A stretch of DNA of 64,000 bases, from contig NC_092568.1 of the NCBI RefSeq assembly GCF_037975245.1, forward strand, positions 22,346,501-22,410,500, read 5' to 3'. The stretch is from Apostichopus japonicus. Its lineage: Eukaryota; Echinodermata; Holothuroidea; Aspidochirotida; Stichopodidae. Positions 13,527-63,955 of this stretch are shown piece by piece. The position numbers were made by a program, and so were the translations under genes. Each line of letters begins with the position of its first letter. Position 1 is the first letter of the stretch. A model generated the notes under the pieces. The model was not told the origin of the DNA. It did not search any database and saw only the letters and a program-made list of their open reading frames with translations.

Positions 13527-15053
13527 GGTCAGTCAAGGTATTATCACGAATGGTACTGTAATATCAATTAACTCCTCGATCCTCTAGTTTACATGAGTTT
13601 AATTTTTCAAGTCGCCACTGTGCAAAGACGGGAGAATGACGCAATGCTCGGTTCGCGTTAACTAACAACGGACATGTTTTAAATTTCAAGCATTCAACCC
13701 GTCAAGTGGCGCTTGGTTCCATGCGCTTTATTTACGTTTTCTGCGCGCGCGTGTTGTTAATGACATCATGCAAATTGTGAAAACAGAGAGTTTTGCGCGG
13801 TAACTTGCAACTAAGTTGGAGTGTGAATGTTGGCTTTGGAACGAAAATAAATAACGCGCCCAAAATAATCTCGTCACATTGAGGAGTGGGCGTTGAGAAG
13901 TCTACGTTGCATTAGCCAATGGATCGCCACATGATCACTCGAAATTGCCGCAAGATCGTTTTTTTATTTAGGCATACCCAAAACATATTTAGTTATTATC
14001 GAAAACGATCATATTAACAGTTGCGGTTACACTTTGCATAAAAAAAAAATCAAAAGCGACAGTCTGACCCATCCTACATATCATATCTACTATCTTACTA
14101 AGTATATAAGTGTCGATACTTTTAGGTCTATAAGTTATTCTTTGCGGCGCAAGGAGGGAGATGGGCGGGGGTTTGGGGGGAGGGGGTTGAGACAGAAAGG
14201 TATCCATAATTTTTAAAAGGAGGCGGTTTGTCCCTGGGACCGTGGTAACGGACTCCCATGTAGGGGGATATTCTGGGATCCCGACCCTGAAAAAAATAAT
14301 TTAACCGTGAAGTGATACGTTTTGAGGTAAGTTTATGATATAAATAGGTCTATAATTTGGTCCACAAGCAAAAACTACTTTAATTCTTTTGTGTGGCATT
14401 GAAAAGGGAGTGTATAACCCACTCACTCAATCACCCCCCCCCCCCCCCCGGCCTGACATACCTGCGCATATCGAGGGTCACTTGATGCGGTGGTAAACAA
14501 TTCAGAATGATTGTTTGGTGCAACATGCATATAAGTATTTTAACTTTGCAAGATTGATTTCCTGTGAACCATTGCTTGTTGAGACTGCTTGGAGATTACT
14601 GGATATAATGTCGTTTTAGCTTTGCCAAATTATAGGATTATACACACAGAATTGAGGTTATGGAGAGCTCCAAAGTCCTCAAAAGTGATTGTTTATTTGC
14701 TTGTCAACGTCGGACGACACGTAGGCCTACAGATACTACTATCCTTATGACTTTGTATATATTTACATTCAGCCTATAGACATGACCTGTTCTTTACCAA
14801 AGTTAAATCCAGTCATTGCATTAGTACTCTTTAGGTTTTTTAATTTGTTTATTTTCTTATTTTGTCCTTTGGACATCGACCCAAAATAGTAAACACCTTA
14901 TTGAAACACACATAGGCCTACATGCACGATATACACGCACTACCCAAAAAATACAAGTGTACTTCAATCAGTTAAAACGGTACAACGTGAACAGTCCCCT
15001 TTCCACGAAATATATTATGTTGACTGTTGATTTTGCTGTTTTAACAGTTGTAC
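13527..15053. other. Intergenic region between divergent genes
   Basis: This separates the start of the coiled-coil gene (-) from the P450-like gene (+). The first 300-400 bases are richer in CpG (for example TGCGCGCGCGTG near 13741) than the rest, which fits a promoter for the minus-strand gene. An acceptor-like CTGTTTTAACAG ends at 15047, six bases before the P450 ATG, suggesting that the P450 has an upstream non-coding exon. A run of about 17 C lies near 14437-14453. No other gene is seen. Confidence 0.5.
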
Positions 15054-18000
15054 ATGGCTCCACTCGGGAAAAATTTACATCGTGTCGTGGTTTTTGTTCT
15101 AAAAATTGTCCGACGGCAACATAAAACCTTCGTTAGTACATTTTCGCTTTTGGTGTTATCGTTTGCGACAATAATTTGGCGACAAAAGTCATGGAAGCGG
15201 TTACCACCAGGACCATGGGGTTTACCCGTAGTGGGGATTCTTCCACATATAATGGCCGTGGACAATCCTGGCCGAAAAATCAGGAACATGTCACAATTTT
15301 ATGGACAGATATTTTGCGCAAGATTGGGAAATCATCGAGCGGTCTTTCTGAATAGTTTGGAAATGATGAAAGAATCCATAAAGCAACGAGAACGAATGTT
15401 TGGCATTGACGAAATTAGTCACGGACTTGTGGAAAACATTAACTTCAAATTTGGTATGTATATGGCGGTATATAGGCCTACCAGTGGGAAGGATGCTGGC
15501 CGGTGGGATGAGAGGAGTCTTACAAATTTGAATGCATACCCATGTGTTCCGTCCTTCACCTCTTCCTTCTCCCTCCTGATCCAAAAATATCAAGAAAAAG
15601 GGGGGGGTGCAAGAACAACAACCAATCAACTATAAAAAGATATACACTACCGGTGTAGAGGGGGAAAGGAACACTCTTCATTTCCACGTATAGCTTACTA
15701 ATGCACAAGATGGTCGTTGTAGGAAATTGAAAACCTTTTTTAAGTTTATCGAAACTTCGATTTAGCCCTAAACGTAGTCGTGACTGTTCAGAGCAGGATC
15801 TCAACTGACTAAGTTAAACAATGTTGACGTAGTGGGAGAGACTAACACATTCGGGGTTATCGGTGTGCCCCTCCCCGATTTTCCTCACCTCTTATGTAGG
15901 TATTGGTACCAATACGTATTAAGGAAAATGTCCATTGTTTAGATTGCCGAATCTACGGAGGGTCGTCTTCTGCGCATCAGCGTTCACAGACGTATATTTG
16001 GCCAATTTGGTTTGGAATCATCTTACCCAATTATTGTAATTCTTGTTTATCCAAAGTCGCGCAACTGAGCCATGGGGGGGGGGGGACATCATTATCCGAA
16101 AACAAAAGCACACGGAGAATGGGGAGATGGTTGGGAAGTGACGGAGGGAGGGGGTGGATGGGTAACAGGTCTTTTCATCTATTTCTCACACCTATGTGGT
16201 TAAACCTCCCATCAGTTCCAGTGCGCAAGCTCAATGGGAAATCACAGGCACCATATCGCAACTTGAAATACTCTAGTCTATATATACTTCCAATTTTCTA
16301 TGAGGTAGGCCATATACATATCCCTTCTAAATAAAAAAAATGGAAGGAACTCCTTTAACCATTTCATAAAACGATATGTGGATGGAAGTGTCTTGAAACA
16401 GAAAGACTCTCCCTTTAAGGCATCAGCGATAGCGCCCTAAACGTTTACGACCCCCCCCCCCCCCACCTAATTACATTCTCATTAAAATGTATACTTATAT
16501 ATCCTACATATATTAAAATCATCCTGACCACAATTTTATAGCGTTTCATATCATCTTTCAGATTTACCATCCTCCAACTTGACATCTGATAATCAGCGCC
16601 AGCGAAGAATGATTCAGAACGTTTTACATCAATTGACATCAGAGAAGACGAGTCAAGCTGTTCACGCGAATATTGTCAACGGATGCCAAATTGTTCTGGA
16701 GGAAATCCAAAAGAGCGCCGCCAAAGAACACTCATTGGTAGATCCTGCTATTCTGTTGACCTACACAATTCCGAATATCCTAATGTCAATTATTTTCAAT
16801 ATTCGCTTTAATCTAGACGATCCTGATTACTTTTTGTTTCTAGAACATTTCTGTCAAATCCAAAAAGCAGGTAGTTCTTCTTGCTATAATCGCCATTCAC
16901 AACTTAATGTTCTAGACGCTTTTGTGAGTAGTATGAGGGGTATGAGTGGGCCTACTAACAATTGGAAGGCTATAGCACTGTGTATGGAAAAGACATTAAA
17001 CATGGAAAGAGATGACATATCTACAGCCGTCGAAGAGTTTCTAACTGGGGTGGAGAAAGAAGATATCAATGCTCTCGATAGTCCGTTTACAATGAATCTT
17101 CTTTTAGCTTACGCGTTAACATACGTCGCCGAAATGGCGCTTCCGATTATAGCTAGTCTTACCTGGTCATTTTTGTACATCGTGAAATATCCACATGTTC
17201 AAGAGAACATACATCGTGAATTAGACAGGGTCGTTGGTCGAGTTGCTTTTGTGACGTCAGCCGATTTCTCAAAGCTGCCATATCTTGCCGCTGTTTTACA
17301 GGAAAGCATACGTCATTCGCCATTAGCATACTTATGTAAGTAACGTATATATATAAAAGATTCATCACTATTGCTGTCAATATATGAAAATTGAAAATAT
17401 TCCATATCAGTCAGTTAAAATGTTGAATTGGAAGCCACCCGACGTGTAAGTTGTAATACATACGTCCTTGCGGGTTTCTCCAACATTTGTGGTCGCTTAA
17501 GCGTCGTAAAAACAACTGCTGATTATTATTATTATTTATGTATGTCAGATATATAAATGTCATTGGTTAATTATGGATACACTTGAGTGCCCCGTTAAGA
17601 GTCTACGTACTGTGGTACTTATGGATACTCTTATCACCTGAAGAATTACCATATATGAAATCCAAAAGTGTCACAAGTTATTTGTTAACGTTTTTTTACC
17701 GAAAACGATGGCATGCAATTGTGAAAATACCCCTGTATCCCTTTCCAATGAACGACCAACCTTCAAATATAAAGAGACTATAGTGATACACACCTGAGGT
17801 GATATCTTTATGATCATGTATAGAGTTACAGCCAGGTGTAAGGGGTCCGGAGATTAAGAGTGAATCAAGTTGTTTGGTTTTCGTGACATTTGCTTCATCT
17901 TGGGTGACTTTTCTTTAACCTATTCATGGAGCTATTTCACCTAACAGATAAGCGACCATGTCCCATGCATCCAAATATCGACGGTATAGGTCTGAAAACT

Positions 18001-19004
18001 TGTATTAATATAGGCTATATGCGGGAAGTGATAACATCATAATTAAAGTGTTTGAACTCTCAAGAATGCGATAAATTACACCTATATACATCTATATCAG
18101 ACATAATGCTAAGTTTCTTCTATCCTTCCTCAGCACTGCAGTATCTAACAGAATCTGAAATCAAGCTGGGCAGTTACACGGTCCCTTCTGACACGTTTGT
18201 ATTCCATAACCTGTGGGCCTTGCTTCATGACCCTAAACATTACCCTGTACCTCACAGATTCAATCCAGATCGCTTTCTATATAATCACCGAACATTTATC
18301 GAGGATGAGAGAGTTAGATTTGTCCATTTCGGAAGGAGTAAGTTTGATATTTTTATTTGAATGTTTGCTCATCTTAAAGTCCGTTTTATGTGTTGGATAT
18401 AGGCAGTGTGTAATTTTGTGCATAGTACTTTGAAGTAGTATTTAAATGAGGTCATGTATGCTTACTTAACGGCAGCATAAATGATTGCATCTTAGTTATA
18501 TACAGCTCGTAAATCGCTGTAAACTGAAAAGGTTATTGATTTAGGCCTATATTAGATGCATTCATTTTTATTTGCGTTGACACACACACATACATAGTGG
18601 AAATACGAAATTTCCTTACCGGTTTCGAACCTGTGGACACACAATCAGCGTCCGGAGCCTATTTTGTTAGGTTGTTCGTATATAAAGCGGGAGGCCCGGT
18701 TTCGAATCCCGGTGGAGGCTGTAAGTTTTATCACTATTTTGGATTACTATACTCATTACAATTTCAAATATATATATGTATAAATATATTATTGTTCTTT
18801 TATTATTCAGAGGGGACACGAGGCGAGTCGCTAAGTACACCAGAAATAATCAGATTCCTTCTATTCTCGAACGTTCTTCACCAGTTTTCACTTTCTTCTC
18901 CAAGCAATCAGGAAGAACTTTCTACAGAAGCCGAAAAGGGACTTGTTAAATTTCCAAAGCCATATGAAGTGAAATTTAGAACAAGAAGAGAAATAAACGA
19001 GTGA
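15054..19004 (+). CDS. Cytochrome P450-fold protein lacking the heme-ligand cysteine (CYP2-clan-like)
   Basis: Four exons join in phase: 15054-15453, 16562-17335, 18134-18337 and 18811-19004. They give 523 residues, a normal P450 length. Seen: an N-terminal membrane anchor (about residues 26-42), the proline hinge PPGPWGLPVVG (51-61), an ExxR motif as E381-S-I-R384, and FNPDRF (434-439) matching the PERF region. The C-terminus FPKPYEVKF is typical of CYP2-type sequences. Known for the family: a cysteine in FxxGxRxCxG binds heme iron, and AGx(D/E)T(T) in the I helix handles oxygen. Here the heme loop reads FGRKGTRGESL (457-467), two residues short and without cysteine. The I helix reads AEMALP (323-328). 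The C-helix tryptophan that contacts heme is also absent (SDNQRQRR). No alternative splice site restores a cysteine. The frame is otherwise open, so this is either a conserved pseudoenzyme or a young pseudogene that has not yet gained stops. Heme-dependent oxygenase activity is not expected. Confidence 0.8.
16450..16467 (+). repeat. Poly-C run
   Basis: A run of about 15 C residues in the first intron of the P450-like gene. Many similar C or G homopolymers occur across the window (for example 14437, 16073, 19531, 22631, 31548, 49650 and 63967), several at the edges of interspersed elements. Confidence 0.6.
18640..18725 (+). repeat. tRNA-like SINE head in P450 intron 3
   Basis: GCGGGAGGCCCGGTTTCGAA followed by TCCCGGTGGAGGCTG has the form of a tRNA T-arm with a near-consensus B box. 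It resembles the tRNA-derived heads of marine invertebrate SINEs. A second B-box-like GGTTTCGAACC lies at 18620-18630. A complete functional tRNA cloverleaf could not be drawn, so this is called a SINE fragment rather than a tRNA gene. Confidence 0.5.
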
Positions 19005-20316
19005 TGATTTTAATTTCGAGGTTATTGTTTTTTCTTATTGTAAACTGGTTTATGATTTTTAACTGGGTATACATGTGTCATAGTTATTGGATGAAGTTGG
19101 TATTATTTTTACTATTTTTATTATTTTATAGACATATTTTGTTATTACTTTCGTTGTTTTCTTTTTGTGCACTAACTTGATGAAAGACGACATGAAACTT
19201 GAAGGATTTTAGCGGTAAATATTGGTTATCTTCAAAGCTGTGATTGCTACAGAATCTATGACTTTCATTGAGATATACATCTCAACTATGCTTGTGGCAT
19301 TTATTTGCATATTTCCGAGACACCAACTGTCTGATTGTGGATGTACACAACAGGGATGGAAGAGATGAATGTTTCCCTGAGCACAATGAATCTGATTAAT
19401 GAAAAGTGAAATAGCGTCCTCTATTCAATGGACTTGATTTTTATACTAAGAGCGCTTACCGTGTCTATGCAATGTAATGTCTATGCACCGCTATATTTCT
19501 GTAATTTCAGTATCTAATGGCACTTGTCCGCCCCCCCCCCCCACTTCTACCGAGAAATAATGGAGTCACCACTGGGATTTGTAAACTATTGTGTTTGTTC
19601 TTCAGTGAAATCCCTAAAGATGGCTTTTCATCTAGTCTCTCACGATTTGTTTATTGTAGCATATACATCAACACCAATTCCATCAGTTACCATGGTGATT
19701 TACATAATTTTGTAACAGTTTTAATATAACTTTCAATTTTATACAAATAAATATCATGACCTGAATTATTACACACGCGCAGTCATCCTTGTGAATATAC
19801 AGGTTTTTTAATTGGAAAAAGCTAATTGGGAATTCAATGAAAATAAACTAAACCAAACGCTTTCAGTAAAACTAACAGCAGGTATATTGTTTACAAATGT
19901 TGGAATAGTTGCCATGGTATTTAATCTCAATATAATGAAACTATCAGATTTTTTTTTTTAAATCTAAGCATGCAGGAAGCAATCTGCTGAAAATAAAATG
20001 ATTGTATTAACTTTTATAGGTTTCACTGAATTGATTTTACTCTCTATAGCTTAAGTCTCTCTATAGCTTTGGAGTCCTTTATTTGATAGGAAGTAATGAA
20101 GTGTGGTCGGCACACTCATTACTATAGTCAGCTACTGTGTTGACTTACTCTCATCGCCGATTGGAGGCAGGACAACGTTTTAAATGGCAAAGACTGTATC
20201 GATAAGGATGTTTAGTGTTTGACTTTGTCTTTTCATAATCCATGACTTTCGTATCTTTTTGAGTTTGCATCTTTTGGTTTCTTAGCCTGGTTTATCTGTT
20301 TTTGACTTTCTTCACT

Positions 20317-20385
20317 GTACAGCGCTTCGAGATTTCTGGGAGGCGCTTTATAAGTAGTATTTATTATTATTATTATTATGACAGG
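20317..20385 (+). repeat. SINE 3' end with (TTA)n tail
   Basis: ACAGCGCTTCGAGATTTCTG then GGAGGCGCTTTATAAGTAGT precedes (TTA)n. This matches the 3' organisation of the element at 305-600. The 5' part is not clearly recognisable. Confidence 0.6.
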
Positions 20386-20725
20386 TTTCTGAAACTTGGT
20401 TTGGCTTAACTACACGTCAACAGTAAAATGTTGCCATAACTACGAGAGTTAATTAAGGTAATAATGGATACTGCGGTAGGATAAATGAAATACATGTTGA
20501 CCTATTTCGGGAAAATCTCTGTAAAATTGTCAGAAAAAGGGAGAAGGTGAGTGGGTAAGGGGATAATCTGGTGGGTCTGAAAATTGAGTGTATAAGTGCA
20601 GTTTGTCATACGAGATATTTACTAAAAGTTTTCAGCCAGAATGCATGGTTGACTACAAAAGTAATATTCAGAACATGTTTAGTTTCAGATATCCGGACTA
20701 AAGCTTTTATTTCACGTAAACATCT

Positions 20726-31438: not shown

Positions 31439-32426
31439 ACCATATCGTATAGCTTGCCACCAAAGGAATTAAGGCTGGCCCTACGCAAATAGCGCAAAGC
31501 GTCTTAGGCTATTGGTCAATAACTTTAATTGCATCCACCGGACCCTGACCCCCCCCCCAATATGAAATCCTGGGTACACGCTTGACTTTCTTTAATATAT
31601 TAGGTTCTTATTTTTAGTTGGAATATATCACTTCAACAATTGAGTGGATGAAACTGGAATAAGCTGTTCAATTTGGGTACAGAAAAATTACAAAACAGTA
31701 ATGTCACCATGGTTTCAAGTGTTTGAGAATGGGACATATATTGCAAAAGTACCTAAAATGACCAAACTAGTTGTGTGCCAAACTTGCCACCCCGTACTCA
31801 AACTCTTGTACTACCTCAGCCCCCCCCCCCTTCCTCCCGATGAGAATGTCTGGTTACACCACTGCTGTCCACCACAAATAAACAAAATGTTAATAAACAG
31901 TCTTTAATGGTAACTCCTCTGAGGAATTTCACATGTCATCAGATGCTATGACTTCTATAGTATATTTCTCACTGCTCTGTGATTTTGAAACTTGTATTAA
32001 ATCTGGTACTTCTTACTTAAAAAATCAACAACAGTGGTTCAAAATATCTAACACATGGCTCCTAATTTACCATCTCTTCATCCTGGATTTCAGACAAGAA
32101 TATATGGCTGAGTTACCAACAATACATGTTTTTAAGTCTGTGGTGACCCGTAGCCTAAACTGGACCGTTTTAATGTTGGCATGTGCAATGACCACTATAT
32201 GACTACAATTCGTGGTTCAGTGTAGCTCTGCACTATATATATATGACAATCATTTAGGTTATACAAGTTTTGGTACTAGCTATATTGACATTTAATCAAC
32301 ACGTAAAAATTTCTTTCCTTAGTAATCCGTTAGTATGTATTTTGTCTTTCAGGTTCAAAGACAGCTGGTTCCATGTACTTTCGATGAGATACCACTATAG
32401 ATAATGATGTTTACCTGTAGAGGATC

Positions 32427-35400
32427 ATGCAAGCAGAAAGACCTGTTCAAGCCCTACCAACTGAAGTAGTTGCCAAGCTTCGTTCATCAGTTTGCACTCC
32501 TTCTCTGGCCCTCTGTGTCGAAGAGTTGGTCTCCAACAGTCTAGATGCCAAAGCCACCTGCATTGCCGTCAGGGTTGATTTAGAGTCTCTGCGACTCCAA
32601 GTAGTGGACAATGGACATGGCATCTCAAGCGAGGACCTTAAATACATCGGTGACCGCTACATGACCAGCAAGTGCTACAGCTTGGACGACCTACAGAACG
32701 TATCCTATTTTGGTTACCGTGGGGAATTTCTTGCCAGTCTAAGAGGTATCTCTTCAGTGTTAGAAGTAGCCTCGAGACTGAAAGGTGAGGGAAGGACATT
32801 TTCAAAATTGTTCAAGAAAGGTGAAGTGTGTGAGATATCCCCAGTGAAGGAAAAGAGATCGACCCACGGTACAACGATTACAGCATACAATGTCTATTAC
32901 AATTTACCAGTGAGACAGAAAAGCATCAAGGTAGCCTTGGATCTTGAAAGAATTAGGAGAAGTTTGGAAGCATTTGCAATCATCCACCATCATGTCTCAT
33001 TTTCATTAAGAGATGACTGTTCAGGTTCAAAGCTGATTCAGACACACTCCACCCAGTCTCCTAAGAGTGCTTTTGGATTTCTGTTTGGGCATGCCAAGTC
33101 AAAAGCTCTCAGAGAGGTCACAAACTCAAACAAGAAATTTACAGTCAAAGGCTATTTTGGTGTCGAGTGTCATGTCAATAACCATCTACAATTTGTTTAT
33201 GTCAATAAAAGAGCAGTTTTGAGGACCAAGATACACAAGTTGGTCAAGCATGGTTTGAAACAGTCCTACCTTTTCAAATCTCAGAGATGTGGGAAAGAGT
33301 CTCCGGTGAATCCTGATTTCTTATCACTCTGTGACCGATCTAGTCCTAGGCCGAGAGGGTCTGGGGGAGAATTTGCTGTCTATGTGCTTGACATTCGCTG
33401 CCTTAGAACTGAGTATGATATTCTTCCCAACACCACTCAGACTTTCCTTGAGTTTCATGATTGGCCAGGCGTATCATCTTGCATTGAACAGGCAGTACAG
33501 TTATTCTTGATCAAAGAAAATCTTACTCTTAGCAGCAACCTAGAAGATGAGGCTGCCAATGATACAAGCGAGTCAGAGGACTCTAGTGATGAAGAAATTG
33601 ATGAAACCATTCCTCAGAGGTTACCAGTGCCACCATCTAGACTTGCAAAACTGCAAAAGTATGGCTTCAACATTAGTACCAAGAACTGCTCTAATAACAT
33701 GCAATCAAAGCTAGTGACTAGAGCTCATCTCAGAACAAAGGGAGAGAAAGGTGATCAAACTTGGCATAATGATAGTTGCAACAGTGATGTTAACGTCCCC
33801 GAGGATGATAATCGAAAGGTGAGAGGCAAAGGTTCCACAAGGGAAGGTTCCTCTAAGGATGAGGGAAACTATTTAGCATCCCGAGCGTCCTGTGCTCCAG
33901 TTGATCTAGAGAGGTCAGTGGAGGAGGGCTTGTTGTCATCTGATGACAATTCAGGGTCAGGGACGATGGGTTACCTAGACCAACATCACCAGCAAAGGAA
34001 ACAGCAGTCACCCTCAGAGAAAGAAATTCTTTCGGTAGATGCCGTACAAAAGGGTGAAACTCTAAGGTGTATCCAAACAGAGAAGCCTGATGGAAAGGTA
34101 ATGCTGTCTGAGATTAATCCAAAGTCACTTGGTTCAGAAGAGAGACCCACATTGGTTAATTCGAATTTGTTTGATGTTGACAAGGAGAAAAGTGCAGAAG
34201 AATGCCAGTCGACTGGATCCGCAAAAATGAGTAGTAAACTTGTTCCGAAAGTATTAGGGGATAGCTGTGCTGTCGGCCATTCAGACAAAAGTGTATTAAC
34301 TTCAGACATTTTGTCAACTGGCTCAAGTAAGTTTTCTTCCCAAAATCAACAGCACATCTCTGCTTCGAACAGTTTAACTAGAAAGGTTGCCATGGTATCC
34401 AGTCCTGACGGACAGTATAAAAGGAGAGATCACTGTTCATCTAATCAGCTGGAAAGCCATAGAGCAGATGAAGGCAAAACACATTCTCAAGTCAGGACTT
34501 GTGGAATTACTCCTGAGAGAGAAGAAGATATAAGTCCACAAGCCAAGTCCTCGTTATTGAAGGAAACCTCAGAGGAGGAAAAGCAGTCTTTGAAAGATGT
34601 TTCAAAACGTGCCAGTTTTGAAAAACCTGAGACACCCAACATTGGCAAGCTTATGGAAGGAGACCAATCCATGGGAACCGAAACTCAGACAGTACCTCAG
34701 AAGTACCAACAAAAAGTTGGCTCATCAGATGCTTCTGCTCATGCTTCAAGTTCCAAAGTTAAGGAGATACCTACGTCAAACAGATACGTGAGTTCTCTGC
34801 ACAGATTTAAGGAAGGTTTAAGGTCCAAACCAGTGAACGTTTCTGTAAACCTTGCATCGAAGATATCAGAGGCTCTTAACAAATCTCAGGAGAACTGTTC
34901 TATTTTCCCAACAGCTAAGGGCACTAAGAGGAAAACTTTGAGCATGGCTGAAATGAGACATCGATGGTTTCCAACATTTGAGCAAGATATGAAAGGGGAT
35001 GAAGAAGGCGATGTTTCTGTCGAACAGAACAGGAGACACTCTTATCCTTTGTCACATGAACTGGCCGTTCGTCAATCATGTGCATCTTCCAAATGTGATG
35101 AGGAGCAAACAGGATTCTCTTCAAACCAGGAGAAATTTGGCGTCACAGAGAAAGTCGATCATGTCTCATCATTTCCATCACATGAAGAAGACGGGAGGGA
35201 AGGTAAAGTAGCAATGGATAGAACAGGTATAAACAGTAATGTAGAATTCGAGACTAGTTTTCCTATAGATAGAAACGTGGTGAAAAGTGGTCTGGCTGAA
35301 AAGAGGTCACATAATGTGGACCAAAGTCACACCTCAAACAGGATGCAACAATCGGACCCACAAAGCTGGTTGCGTGATGAAGATGAAGAGGACTTAAATT

Positions 35401-37176
35401 TAAATAGCCTGCCATCTTCTGCAGAGACGAGCAACTATTCCAGAAGGTCTCCTCCACTTGTTCAAAGAAGGAACTTTGATCAAGATGGTCTTTTTCTTGA
35501 CCAAAGCTTCCAGAAATATGCTCAGAGTGGTTCTTTAAGATCTTTAAGAGTAAAGCAAAATCTGCCATCTGATTCTGAAGGTCCACAGACCAAGCACAAG
35601 GTTGTTAGAACTGATTCCATGCATCATGCAAGCACTTCAAATTCCAAACAGCAGTCATTTATGTCAACTGTTAGTTTTGTAATTTCTGCACAAGATTTAC
35701 TACCCCAGAGGGACAAGTCAGAAGTAGAACGTGCTGGATGTTCAACCACTGGAAATAGTTCTCAGAGGGAATATTCCTTAACAGATTCAGAATCAATGAG
35801 GCTGCATGATAATCATAAAATGGCAGCTTGCATGACGAAGCAATCCCACCCTAAACAGGTACAAGGTTCCAAGACATGTAAACCTGATGTTGCGGCATAC
35901 AGTGTGGACTCTTTTAGACCGGATGGTGTTAGCAGGAAACTGTTGAAGCAAGGTATAGGTTACGTTACAAGGGATGAATACTTGGACAATGTCGATTCTG
36001 AGAACCAGGGTAGAAAGATTAGCTACACTAGAGAGAATAGGTATCCAAGCAACGATGAGAATGAACCGAGACAGACAGAATTATCCCCGAGTTGCAAAAA
36101 TTTGACAATAAGTGAGAAACAACATCAAGAGTTATTAGCGATACTTGACAGTAGTCCATTTTGTTCTTTTCCGTCTGAGAGTAGAAACTGTGTAGCTGAC
36201 CAAACTGACACCTCTCAAAGACATCTAGTCGAAACCTATGGTGAAGAAGAAATCCTCTCAACACAGCCGTTTAATGTTCAAAGCCCTGAACAAGGAAACT
36301 ACCTTGTGAATCAATGCAACCCTAGTGAAACACAGCAGTCTGCTGATGCGAGTCCAGTTGCTACAACCCAACCGTTTGTTATACCATCTCCGGTTGAGAC
36401 ACCACCCGGCGCTTCTTGGACACAGATGGAGCTGGACTTGGAAACTCTGGTCTCTGGTAGTGATGCAAAGTTAGCTATCCAAGTTGTGGAGGATGATGAA
36501 GCTGATATAAATGTGAATCAGTCAAAGACCAGTGATGAAGATTTCCCAGTGGTATCAAGCCAACTATCACAGAGGACACTGGATGATTTGAAAACATTGA
36601 GTGAAGAGGACATCCGTCTCCTGACAGTTATTGAGCAACAATCAGTATCATCGTCATCTGTCGAAGAAAAGAGGATCGAAAGAGGAGATGAATTGGACGT
36701 AAATCTTGTCCAGTGTTTAGTCGATGGTACTGATGAAACGTCCGACAGTTCTCAGCAGAAATCCAAGTCCATCAACCAACCATTAGACTCTCAAGGAGGA
36801 GGTACCATGGCGGCAAAGAGTGACGAGAACTTCAATACAGATACCAGGACCAAAGTCATCTTAAACGATAATCATACATTTGCTCTGGAGAGAGAAAGTG
36901 TGAACTCTGTTGCTCTTAGGGCAGGGAGAGATAACTTAAAGGCCAATGTTGGGACTAGTAATGATGACCTCCAAGATGGTGCAGGAGGTGATGCTATCAA
37001 GAGTCAGACCACTAATGCTCCCAAGTTTGTTAAATATTCTACAAAAGATACGGTTCCATTTTATGAGCGTGTTCGTAGTACAGAAGAAGGGAACAGTGAT
37101 GAAGAGAGGAAGGGAGGACTCTCTAACAAACAGAGCAAGCAAGAAGTTGTCTCTGCTCCTAGCGATGTGCCTCAAG
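32427..37176 (+). CDS. MLH3: MLH3 exon 1: ATPase domain and giant linker exon
   Basis: This one exon holds 1583 codons plus one base (donor CTCAAG/GTGAGC). It contains the whole ATPase and transducer region (about residues 1-350) and over 1200 residues of presumably disordered linker. Vertebrate MLH3 also has one very large first coding exon, so the organisation is conserved while the length has grown. The linker contains acidic patches (EDSSDEEIDET, DEDEEDLNLN) and SQ/TQ sites (for example STQPF and TTQPF) that could be targets of damage-response kinases. That last point is inference. Confidence 0.9.
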
Positions 37177-40100
37177 GTGAGCAACGTTATTTTGTGGGCT
37201 TTTGACATACTGCATACTTTAGGTCCTGATTTTGACTGATATTTTACCATTAGGAGTCTGTTTCTTCAATTCTTACTGGGGCATTAGGGATGGGGGCAAT
37301 ATAATTGGTCAGTAATTAATTGATGGGGTCAACCTTATGTCATGCATTACAAAATCAGTTTTGTTAATATTTCAATTGTGCCAACAGGTCAAATTGATCC
37401 ATCTTGTAGATTTGGGTTTCTTACAACATGCAACTGACAATGATTTTCCATTAGAAATCTTAGAAAATTATTTGCCTTTTAAAACCAACAATGAAATTGC
37501 TGTAGAATTTTTTTGGCAAATTTTTAATTTCCATGTCACTTCAATGAATTTGATGATTAATTTGAAATTATTGTTCATTTTTATAGGTACCTCTGCCCCA
37601 TTTTCTTGTGAATTGTACTGGTTCCTGCCAAAGAGTGCCAAACCATTCCTCCCTCGTTCCCTCCAAGAACGACAGCGATCTTCGGCAGAAGGAGGGGACC
37701 AGGCGGATGTGGAGAAGCTCATAAATCAACACATCTCATCAAAAGACGAGGAAGAAAGAAAATTAAAATGGAAAGATGGAATACCCTTGGTTGATTCAGG
37801 TAAAGAACGAGAAGATTACTTTACATAAGAAATGTTCTCCTATTTTGGATTTTAGCGAACTTTAATAGTCAACTGAGACAATTTACAGATCAAGTCTTTT
37901 AGCCAAGTTTCAATGGCCAGAGCTCAAAGTTAAAAAATTCTCATGTTTATATTAAAAAGTTGACAGTCTTTTATTCCTTCAAAGCTGCGTAAACCATATT
38001 GTTCACTTTTCGAGTAAATATATCCAAGTTCAAATTCAAAATCACAGTCAGAAATGAACATAATCATATAAAGAGAAAAGGAAAGAAAAGGTAATTTTAT
38101 TTTATCAAAACCACAGGATGACTTTTGTTTACGAGGTTTTGCCCAATTGAATTATTAGAAGAGGGTGACATTGCAAGACATTCTTGCTACTTATTCAGTT
38201 TTAGCATCTCTGTATAAATTTGTTGAAAGAAAATATATGTTTGTTTGTTTAAAGGCTGTAAATGTTTCAAAAATCTCTGGAGATGTTTAGATTTGGCATT
38301 CTTTTCCTTTCCTTGTTGGCTTCTGAGATCAGTTTTGAAGTTTTCACAAGTGATTTACTCTACTAGCTTGACATTCTTATGTTTTGAATGACATTAAATA
38401 GTTAAAATCAGAATAATGCATTCCTGATGCAAGTGTTGTTTTCTTCATTGTTGCATCATGCATAAAATGTTAAAGGGGAAGTGTTTAAAGTGTCCCTAAG
38501 ACTTAACATTTTCAACATTGGTTAATAAATTTTTCACTTTAAATAGTTTCCTGGTAGTGGTACTGCAATAGTCTAAAACTTTATCATGTTTTGCTAACTA
38601 TGAATCCCTCAGATGATATTTTGTCCTTATTATGCATGTTTACATAACTGCTTTGTGCACTTTTAATTCACATGAAATGCAAGTTTGACCATGTTGACCA
38701 TCAATGTTAGTCCCAGGTTTTTGCACAACGCAGGTTCCCAAGAAAAAATTGAATCTTATTATATGTCAGCAATCGAAAAAGATTGTAGTGTGATTAATGT
38801 GTTTCATTAAGCATTGTACATTCCTTGCAATTTATTTGTCTGAATATTTCAGAGTCTTGTAAGTCAATGGATGAACTCTTCGACAACTGGCAGAATCCCA
38901 TCTTTGAGACGGCTGCATCCGAGGCCCTCAATGCTAGTACCACACAAACGCTGGCTGCCACCGTCAAAGTGCACAACAGCTTACACCCATATCAGTTTAC
39001 CAAGGAAATATTCAAGTCCATGCAGGTATATTTCACAAAGTCATCATATTCTGTAATGAAATAGCTTGGTACAATTAGAGAAGTTCCTTAACTATGTAAG
39101 AGAGGGTTGGGAGGAGGAGAGAGGACCTGCTGATCCCCATTTGGAATTTGGGGTACAAAATGGAAGTTCTGGCATGTTAAGATGAGCACTTCCTCCCCAC
39201 CCCACCCCCTCCCTTTTTGTTTTGTTGTAGTACTTTGAATACTATAAACTCATGGGCAATGGACATCCACCCCACCTTACCTCTCTCCTGCCCCACCACA
39301 CCACTTGTTAAAACCTTGTATGTTGGGCATGATGGGGAAATGAAAGCTGCTATTTAATAAGTCAGGTTGACCCAACTTGTAATACCCATGTAATATAAGA
39401 TAAATGAATTCATTTGGAAAACTCTACACTAATATAAAAGAAATCATGAAATAATTGAAGCAATACCTTTTCTTTACAGAAATATTTATATTAACACAAT
39501 AGTGCAAGTAGATTCTGCTTGCTATAGCACGATTTAAATTAAGATCATAACTAACAAAAATCTTTATCCTTATTTCTGAGAAAAATCAGTAAAACAAAAT
39601 ACCTTTAGGCTTATAGATAGAGAAAATAGTTCGGTTGAAAGTGCACGAAGAGGAAGTTCTCCTTCGACTTTCTTTCTTTTTCACATTTTTAACATACTTT
39701 GTGGTAAGTCAAACTGGCACGTACGGTGACCTAGTTCATAAAAAAAATTTCAGGTGAACCGTGGTTTTGTTTGTACAGGAGGCTTTTGATTCCCTCGCAA
39801 ATCATGGATTTAATTTCGCAGCCATTCTTGTAAGAAATGAAAATAAATTATTATATACAGAAAGTAGGCTGGGTAATGTTTTACTCTTCCCAGAGAAAAA
39901 AAAGAAAGAAAAGGGAGGCCTGTCTTATGAAAACAATCAACCATTTCCTATTCAGCATTTTGTTTTTTTATTGCAGTCGTAATAATTGCATTGAGAGCTT
40001 GGCAAAGGAAACTGCATTGTGTGTTGCTTTTGTACATGAAAAGTGAGATCTTAAGTATGCTGCATGTGTTCGTCTAGGAAGTAATTGAAAGGAGGTTCGT

Positions 40101-61900: not shown

Positions 61901-63955
61901 TGTAATAACTAATCTATCGTATTCACTTGTATACTCTCGATAACTGTCTTCGATTACACGATTACACATCTCCACCTTTTTAACAACAGGGTGACGTTCC
62001 TTGTCAAATAGTTAAGTGTAGTAGCTGAAGCAATATTTTTGTCAAGAAGGAGGGAGAGGAGGTCCAGCAACATATATCATACGACACACACTATGCCATC
62101 CATGCAAAGGCGTTTGAAGCGGAAATGGTGGGAGGTTCTTGTTTCAATCAAACATATGATAGGAGAAGGTAAACACCACTTCTTGTCACTGTTTTTTCCT
62201 TCCCGCAAACAAAGCCTTTGTAACTTTTCGGTCAGATAGTTTCAGTGGAAATATCTTCCACGTCTCAAAGTAGCAAACCGTAACGTAAACTTTAACATAA
62301 ATATCTGTCGTATTACTATAAAGACCGTCGTTTGCACCCATAGGCGATTCGAATACATACCATACGAGCTCATTTGAGAATGGCGTGTTAACAACATAAA
62401 AAAAAACGAAAGTACTAGTAGGACTACCCCCTTAAAAAAAATATATTACAGGATAGGCTATATGCATGATAGCAGGACGTAACATTTTTATATTTGATAT
62501 CAATGTATTGCAATCAAGTAGATACATTTTGTTACTGATATATAGTTCTTCTCTTTTCGCTGTCAACACCTGACAAAATTTCCTTTCATCATAATCCAAA
62601 GAAAACGTTAGAGTGTGACCTCTCAATCTAACACTTCAGAACCATCAATATGACACCTAATTAAACGTCAAGTGTCTCAAACGCTTTTAATTGCTTTCAG
62701 CCCATGCCTCTGTTCCTCACGCCTAATCCATTGATAAGCCTTCGTGGGTGTGCATCTTTCGACGGGTCTCCTTACCTCAACCCCAGAGTGTAAAGACGGG
62801 TTCAAAATATCATCGCAAAAATTGATGTAACTTTTGTTTTGAGATGTCCCGCGATAGCGTTTGATTCTCAGCTGTGTTAAGAACATCTCTTCCTCCCTCT
62901 TTTTAAGATTACGACACATCGATTGCCATACATCTGCATTTCTTTATCCTTTTGACTCGTTTGGTTTTGATTGGTGGATCCTGACCTGGGCATCTTAATG
63001 TCACCGTTATGTAAGCTACCTTTTGAGGTTTACAAAATGAGCAGGACTGAAAAGCTTGGTTGTAATCGTTCGACTGTTTCGGGATGTAAAATGAATTACA
63101 CTGCCCATAACATAATCTGTTCGTGATAATCCGCGAGATACATCCGGGCTCTTCTATCCTTTGTCGCAGTGTGTAGGCTTTACACCAGTCGTCTCTCAGA
63201 TAACTCGTCCCACTGTCTATAAGTTCCTCACTGGACGGCTGCAGTTTAAAAGAAAGAAGATCAAAATTGACGGTAAAGCTTATCAAAACTGTTGAATTCT
63301 GAGAAATATATAGATATATATTTATATAGATATATATTTATATAGATATTTATGCTGGACGATTCTAATGTGGATTTTATTATCAGTATTTGTTATTATA
63401 ATATATATAAATTATTTTTTCAATATTATTTTATAATTCAAATTTTAGTTGACCTTGAAATAAGTCTCCATTCAACAGCGTCGTCATGACATTGATCTAG
63501 TACTCTACATCTCAAAGAATGAAAAAAAAGAAGAAAGTTGAAAACTGAAGAAGACATTTAGGCTACGATCTTTTCCAATTTCTCTTGTTGAACTATCTCT
63601 CTTTGTGTTTACACATGACAACGGGGAGGCTACCTCGTTCGTTGTATAAATTCATTTCCCACTGATTCGCCCGCTGTTTGCCTAATTGACTTTGAGAGAT
63701 TTAAATTGCTTTACATTATTTTCTTACAGGTTTAGAAAACACAATACCACGCAATTGGCGTTCCTTGCTTCGACATTGAACCATCCTCCCTATGAACTCT
63801 TTACACAAAACTACAAAATATATTCATTTCTTATCACAATTTTGATGAAGAAAATTCGTCAGGGAATTGATAAATGTCGTGCAAATAGTGAAAGATTCTT
63901 AACAACGAGTCCACTATTCAGCAAATCAATTGTGAGAGATATAATACCAAATTAA
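58922..63955 (+). CDS. Unidentified small protein, four exons
   Basis: Exons 58922-58999, 60292-60390, 62047-62168 and 63730-63955 join with matching phases (0, 0, 2) into about 174 residues from an ATG in fair context to a TAA. Donors are TAC/GTAGGT, GTG/GTAAGG and AAG/GTAAAC. The last acceptor, TTTCTTACAG, is strong; the third (GTCAAG) is weak. The protein begins MRSRQELGQSDPYIYNPTQP and contains two similar stretches (PTQPAGFKTY and PSQAGFRGWDIETY). It then has TDNSFFGSPVPCR, HISYDTHYAIHAKAFEAE and LNHPPYELF. It lacks a signal peptide or membrane segment. Short proteins rich in Y, P, N and G of this kind occur among axonemal microtubule inner proteins, but I cannot match it to a family. 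An acceptor immediately precedes the ATG, so the gene could have an upstream exon. The third intron holds the gremlin exon on the opposite strand. Confidence 0.5.
60395..60447 (+). repeat. Tandem duplication of an AAGGGGAAACCACCACCC unit
   Basis: The unit, ending in CCCTTCAAT, occurs twice just after the second donor of the small gene. The downstream part (CCCTTCAATAATTTGCTAAA through GAAAGAAAA) is also found at 55904-55931, which suggests an interspersed repeat. Confidence 0.65.
61048..61073 (+). repeat. (ATT)n microsatellite
   Basis: About eight ATT units within intron 2 of the small plus-strand gene. They could be the tail of a degraded SINE, but no body is recognisable upstream. Confidence 0.65.
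62909..63238 (-). CDS. GREM: Gremlin-like DAN-family BMP antagonist, C-terminal exon (5' part not in window)
   Basis: The exon starts after the acceptor AAACTGCAG and ends at TAA (62909-62911), giving 109 residues. It carries the full DAN cystine-knot domain: DDWCKAY, EPGCISRIITNRLCYGQCNS, FYIPKQ, FQSCSFCKPQK, VTLRCPGQ and KKCRCMAIDVS. The nine cysteines match the gremlin pattern, and CYGQCNSFYIP plus SCSFCKP are gremlin hallmarks. Gremlins are secreted proteins that bind BMP2/4-type ligands outside the cell. The signal peptide and N-terminal basic region are not in this exon. The first coding exon must lie above 63239, probably beyond the window. Vertebrate GREM1 has its coding region in one exon, so an intron just before the knot domain is a difference. 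GREM1 versus GREM2 cannot be decided. Confidence 0.9.
   Translation of the reverse strand, partial: PSSEELIDSGTSYLRDDWCKAYTLRQRIEEPGCISRIITNRLCYGQCNSFYIPKQSNDYNQAFQSCSFCKPQKVAYITVTLRCPGQDPPIKTKRVKRIKKCRCMAIDVS
63300..63352 (+). repeat. AT-rich tandem repeat, period about 20
   Basis: TATATAGATATATATTTA recurs two to three times within the intron between the gremlin exon and the last exon of the small gene. Confidence 0.7.

Follow-up and report, generated by a model that had tools for sequence, protein, structure and literature searches.

Enumeration of splice combinations in the window, i.e., the whole 64-kb stretch of DNA analyzed here, joined four exons on the plus strand into a stop-free reading frame of 523 codons interrupted by GT-AG introns (Table 1). 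With junction 3 held at 18337/18811 and the GT-AG pairs near junctions 1 and 2 enumerated, two in-phase GT-AG combinations were obtained, one of which was open (523 aa) while the other carried one internal stop. Together with retranslation, this bore out the gene model proposed in an initial inspection of the DNA (hereafter the sequence-only reading) with respect to coordinates, the four exons, their phases and the open frame, and the N-terminal anchor, the PPGP hinge, the ExxR motif (E381..R384) and FNPDRF named in that inspection were all seen. The presence of three GT-AG introns rules out a processed pseudogene, and the single assembly shows neither a stop or frameshift nor the loss of a splice site that would mark a pseudogene. 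No tandem repeats were found across positions 14000-20500 at a score of 50.

Table 1. Exons, retained motifs and altered heme and oxygen sites of the P450-like gene (positions in the window).
Feature	Position	Strand	Basis or remark
Exon 1	15054..15453	+	N-terminal anchor and PPGPWG hinge; phase 1 at end; Pfam p450 match from residue 51
Hydrophobic anchor, residues 24-42	15123..15179	+	Top 19-residue mean hydropathy 1.56, starts 1-80
B-C loop Arg column, Asp119 (GAC)	15408..15410	+	Alignment
Exon 2	16562..17335	+	C helix to K helix; matched in genome P450 search at C8:22363082-22363867
C-helix Trp column, Asn144 (AAT)	16591..16593	+	MAFFT alignment
I-helix oxygen-activation motif (Gly-Thr-Glu-Thr columns), Met325-Ala-Leu-Pro328	17134..17145	+	Alignment
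K-helix ExxR, retained (ESIR, residues 381-384)	17302..17313	+	Alignment
Exon 3	18134..18337	+	Post-K-helix region to heme loop; phase 1 end within Lys460 codon
Propionate-binding His column, Tyr395 (TAT)	18142..18144	+	Alignment
PERF motif, retained (FNPDRF, F434-F439)	18259..18276	+	Alignment
Exon 4	18811..19004	+	Remaining heme loop, L helix, C terminus, stop
Heme-thiolate Cys column, Thr462 (ACA)	18816..18818	+	Alignment

The encoded protein matched PF00067 over its full length (model positions 1-462) with 198.5 bits against a curated cut-off of 22.8, and it carries both ExxR and PERF, the core criteria of the P450 superfamily. Among the best 60 of 227 distinct sequences matched in PDB, the top match was CYP2B6 (4zv8; E 9.1e-43, residues 46-518), which at 28% also showed the highest identity to the protein among the 25 other rows of our tree. 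When the protein was searched against its own genome, 82 of 122 candidates were scored and 71 matches listed; among those listed, the best by E-value beyond the gene's own four exons was 26% identical (residues 52-518), and single-exon matches reached up to 38% identity. A recent duplicate or an assembly copy was dismissed, since even the best nearly full-length match listed was this distant, and the absence of a close copy among the matches listed makes the gene look like an old lineage and not a fresh duplicate.

The window corresponds to C8:22346501-22410500 of a 671.6-Mb genome with 35 contigs. Under translation table 9, which echinoderm and flatworm mitochondria use, the COX1 gene of contig C35 can be read over 500 codons with no stop, and its AAA codons appear to lie where Asn is usual; the animal is likely an echinoderm. 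Other P450 genes of the same genome served as comparators. The genome P450 search reported 96 matches, and 32 loci together with 20 short heme-loop stretches were examined. All 52 carry the loop cysteine, namely nine single-exon and 15 three-exon genes, eight further loci (including L034) and 20 of 20 short stretches. The products of the single-exon and three-exon genes (four of the latter, L019, L023, L025 and L028, without a modeled exon 1) and CYP2B6 were aligned with the gene product using MAFFT, giving 25 comparators, and 13 heme and oxygen sites were chosen from known CYP2 structures. Retention of the covered sites is complete in 20 of the 25 comparators (13 of 13 sites in 18 of them, 12 of 12 in L019 and L023); L006 and L027 retain 12 of 13 and L028 11 of 12, and the lowest values are those of L025 and L026 with 8 of 13 each, the first site not being truly covered in L025, where exon 1 is missing. 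L026 (C19:1569300-1571300) is a very divergent single-exon P450 with an end branch of 1.98, in which the heme cysteine is retained, the I helix reads EGVAN and the C-helix Arg is changed to His. L025 (C3:5554500-5560500), likewise with a retained heme cysteine, has the I helix GGTNVP and the propionate His changed to Arg.

Three of the 13 heme and oxygen sites (Arg148, Gly458 and Gly464) are retained in the gene product. The cysteine of FxxGxRxCxG, the signature of catalytic P450s, is replaced: with GE of GESL aligned, the heme-ligand column is occupied by Thr462 (ACA) and two additional residues fall in the L helix. Aligning exon 4 without gaps from its C-terminal part places Gly in the Cys column, still giving no Cys; this alternative was rejected since it scores far worse (segment scores of -11 to -21 gap-free versus +16 to +26 GE-aligned against three comparators, with a gap charge of about 12-13 not yet deducted) and does not restore the cysteine anyway. 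The loss of the heme cysteine claimed in the sequence-only reading thus holds under either alignment of exon 4, and, independently of any alignment, the protein has no Cys beyond residue 274. The C-helix Trp column contains W in 25 of 25 comparators and Asn144 in the gene product, and while a pairwise HMMER alignment with CYP2B6 shifts this column by one residue, beside a gap, there is no Trp at all from residue 55 to residue 268, regardless of alignment, so that the missing C-helix Trp of the same reading is confirmed. In the I helix, EMALPI stands in the place of [A/G]Gx[D/E]T[T/S]. Here the reported loss of the motif was right but its register was off by one residue, as AGTETT corresponds to EMALPI when counted from the shared KYP. 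The damage had been described as affecting three contacts and proved to be wider, with additional changes of the B-C loop Arg to Asp119, the post-K-helix His to Tyr395, the loop Phe to Val455 and the loop Arg to Lys460.

The losses are concentrated at the heme. The comparators define 69 columns with at least 80% conservation, 42 of which are matched by the gene product; retention is 39 of 56 (0.70) outside the heme and oxygen sites versus 3 of 13 within them (Fisher p = 0.0035). All 25 comparators agree at nine columns. The gene product retains five of these (Pro344, Glu381, Arg384, Pro436 and Gly458), and the four that it has lost (Trp, I-helix Gly, loop Arg and Cys) are without exception heme or oxygen sites. 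The retention of 0.70 in the non-heme columns is below that of 24 of the 25 comparators (0.76-1.00), only L026 being lower (0.66), and by this measure constraint on the remainder of the protein is also relaxed. Divergence alone is nevertheless insufficient as a cause of the pattern, since Cys, Trp and the I-helix Gly are all present in the divergent L025 and L026, which retain 35 of 46 and 39 of 59 other conserved columns, respectively, the overall divergence of L026 being similar to that of the Cys-less gene. The odd I helices of these two Cys-bearing proteins also mean that a changed I helix by itself is no mark of a dead enzyme.

The tree, in which CYP2B6 is the one named CYP2 sequence, places the Cys-less protein on the side of CYP2B6 and the three-exon genes with a support of 100/100, at the end of a branch of 2.34 compared to a median of 0.74. 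Its pairing with L022 (support 92/89) carries a long-branch warning, and the placement is open once L022 is removed. Close kinship with L022 was hence set aside, since two long branches meet and the placement depends on L022 itself. Intron 1 agrees with that of L022 in phase, and in both genes it precedes the Trp column by ten residues. Should the two indeed form a pair, the amount of change in the Cys-less protein would be about 1.5 times that in L022 (1.56); from a sequence free of constraint we would expect more.

The 13 heme and oxygen sites comprise 39 bases and require a minimum of 17 nucleotide changes, or 0.65 substitutions per site (Jukes-Cantor); in the gap-free alignment the Cys site counts as one change instead of three, with the other loop sites left at their original count. 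We compared this with neutral simulations of substitutions only, starting from the gene sequence and assuming a kappa of 2, with 1000 runs per divergence. The frame stayed open in 52% of runs at 0.01 substitutions per site, 14% at 0.03 and 6% at 0.05, while at 0.1 the copies had a mean of 5.6 stops and 0.2% of them were open. No open frames were obtained at 0.2 per site or above, including 0 of 1000 at 0.66, and all these open-frame figures are overestimates, since indels would cut the open fraction further. For the 13 sites, a total as high as 17 changes was not reached in any run at divergences of 0.3 or less; it was reached in 1.5% of runs at 0.5 and in 9.5% at 0.66. Since about 0.65 per site is needed, and no frame survived from 0.2 upwards, the heme sites would not have changed by neutral decay alone, which speaks for selection having preserved the frame during the time in which they changed. 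A pseudogene that acquired its heme-site changes solely during neutral decay is very unlikely. Adaptive, fast change at the heme sites would look the same as slow change in single-genome data.

A related explanation is that of a dying gene, in which heme binding was lost while the protein was still of use in some way or selection was relaxed, and which is by now a pseudogene too young to have gained a stop. The long end branch and the less than usual retention of the other conserved columns would fit such a history, as would the substantial fractions of simulated copies that were stop-free at 0.01 and 0.03 with indels excluded. In contrast, the divergence that an all-neutral change of the heme sites requires, at which not one simulated copy remained open, and the GT-AG borders with agreeing phases at all three introns speak against it. 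On balance we regard a dying gene as somewhat unlikely; the version in which heme binding was lost long ago and the gene died recently, no more than about 0.03 neutral substitutions per site ago, is possible.

Alternatively, the heme chemistry may have been altered and not abolished, with heme held by another residue or by the pocket alone, for a non-monooxygenase reaction or for ligand sensing. The retained C-helix Arg148 and loop glycines 458 and 464, the conservative nature of the loop change from Arg to Lys460 and the occurrence of odd I helices in L025 and L026, which nevertheless retain Cys, could be taken in its favor. However, the Trp, the His, the B-C loop Arg, the Gly, acid and Thr of the I helix and the loop Phe have been lost as well, and Thr, instead of His or Cys, occupies the ligand column, for which reason we find this explanation quite improbable.

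The position of the heme loop relative to intron 3 required separate attention. In 15 of 15 modeled three-exon paralogs the last intron is in phase 1 and lies within the FxxG glycine; intron 3 of the Cys-less gene is also in phase 1 and lies two codons further downstream. An extra microexon restoring FxxGxRxCxG, which the sequence-only reading had named as a finding that would overturn it, was looked for in intron 3 and not found: 12 in-frame GT-AG mini-exons of up to 120 bases were obtained, three of them with Cys and none heme-loop-like. Neither did any of the alternative donor and acceptor pairs tried put a Cys into the loop, and restoration of the cysteine by a microexon or by alternative splicing was rejected on this basis. 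The motif FxxGx[RKH]xCxG is absent from all six frames of the window, and looser heme-loop patterns gave two matches (29984 on the plus and 28009 on the minus strand) with surroundings that are not P450-like. An annotation or assembly artefact, in which the real heme loop sits in another exon or is missing from the assembly, might be suspected from the displaced intron 3 and from the dispersed repeat within it, but is highly improbable given the outcome of these scans, the continuation of exon 4 into an L helix and a C terminus that can be aligned with the paralogs, and the loss of further heme sites in different exons.

The dispersed repeat in intron 3 (window 18596-18730) lies about 80 bases upstream of exon 4 and has at least 39 other matches of 85-90% identity (40 listed including its own, of 1244 first-look candidates). 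By eye it contains a stretch resembling a tRNA B box, no tRNA gene was called in it by ARAGORN, and it is perhaps a SINE.

We therefore consider it more likely than not that the locus encodes a pseudoenzyme with a P450 fold, close to the CYP2 clan, that is anchored in the ER and has been retained without catalytic function. The sequence-only reading had likewise proposed a retained non-catalytic P450, of which the selective loss of heme contacts and the intact frame proved real, and retention itself gains from the failure of neutral decay alone as an account, so that this interpretation is supported in part. The N-terminal helix would probably anchor the protein in the endoplasmic reticulum, and the fold is probably P450-like since the protein retains its hinge, ExxR and PERF along with much of the glycine and proline framework. 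Heme could not be held through a cysteine thiolate, and since both the thiolate Cys and the oxygen-activating I-helix motif are gone, the protein should be without monooxygenase activity. It may instead act through its surface or through an empty pocket. Its most likely role would be that of a membrane-bound partner that stabilizes or regulates another ER enzyme (a P450, a reductase or a transferase) in the manner of EryCII, and our next choice would be a heme-free binder of lipids or xenobiotics. The step from a non-catalytic protein to a partner protein is one that we infer by analogy, and any particular partner or ligand would be a guess. That a heme-free P450 fold in the animal ER has long been under selection as an allosteric partner or decoy, as an independent counterpart of EryCII and DesVIII, is a suggestion that we consider unlikely in this specific form.

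The gene resembles the microsomal P450s of the CYP2 type (CYP2B6, 4zv8) in its full-length fold as judged from sequence, its N-terminal anchor, hinge, ExxR and PERF, and its last intron interrupts the heme loop, as is the case in the three-exon P450 genes of the same genome. It differs from the CYP2 enzymes in lacking the thiolate Cys, the C-helix Trp, the Gly, acid and Thr of the I helix and the propionate His. The bacterial P450 homologs EryCII and DesVIII are described as lacking the heme cysteine and as not being active P450s, and EryCII as stabilizing EryCIII and acting as an allosteric activator of this glycosyltransferase (PMC3391682); AknT is described as another glycosyltransferase auxiliary P450 homolog without the heme cysteine (PMC10054333). 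These proteins share with the present one, as far as its fold can be judged from sequence, a P450 fold devoid of the heme Cys, but they are bacterial and partnered with glycosyltransferases, and EryCII is further described as lacking the C helix and having an extra N-terminal helix (PMC3391682). Eukaryotic examples are provided by CYP5619D of oomycetes, for which six P450 proteins are reported without the conserved cysteine (PMC5919972), although these belong to a separate lineage in which the P450 is fused to a peroxidase/dioxygenase. Among animals, the orphan P450 CYP20A1 is likewise predicted to have unusual structural features (PMC8669017), yet CYP20A1 of Capitella is given with its Cys retained (PFGFGKRKCLG; PMC4229089). 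A paper on the annelid CYPome cites Sezutsu 2013 for documented departures from the conserved cysteine. No report of a Cys-less P450 from an echinoderm was found by title or abstract opening among the matches listed, in a literature of which coverage is incomplete. Cys-less P450 homologs are thus already known from bacteria and oomycetes, and the present gene is an animal variant. At least one P450 survey is described as explicitly dropping sequences without the heme motif (PMC9603955), and because of such motif filtering, retained non-catalytic P450s of animals may be under-counted. A stop-free, full-length CYP2-like animal gene that has lost nearly all of its heme contacts would make non-catalytic uses of the fold testable in an animal.

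Translation of the window in six frames gave 149 ORFs with a length of 70 aa or more, and 10 of these, in the neighborhood of the gene, were scanned against Pfam without a match to a glycosyltransferase. Four of them gave Pfam matches, namely a C2HC zinc finger in two ORFs (one below the cut-off), a MutL-like ATPase and a DAN domain, and none of the scanned ORFs suggests an interaction partner. The MutL-type ATPase domain is part of a 1594-codon open frame on the plus strand (window 32421-37202), the product of which presumably resembles an MLH3-like mismatch repair protein. The DAN-domain cystine knot is encoded by an exon on the minus strand (window 62912-63337) that we take to be gremlin-like. 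Elsewhere in the genome, in addition to the full gene on C35, COX1 was matched five times on contig C29, where the matches contain TGA codons; C29 could be mitochondrial, as a second contig or a rearranged one, or the matches could be copies in the nucleus.
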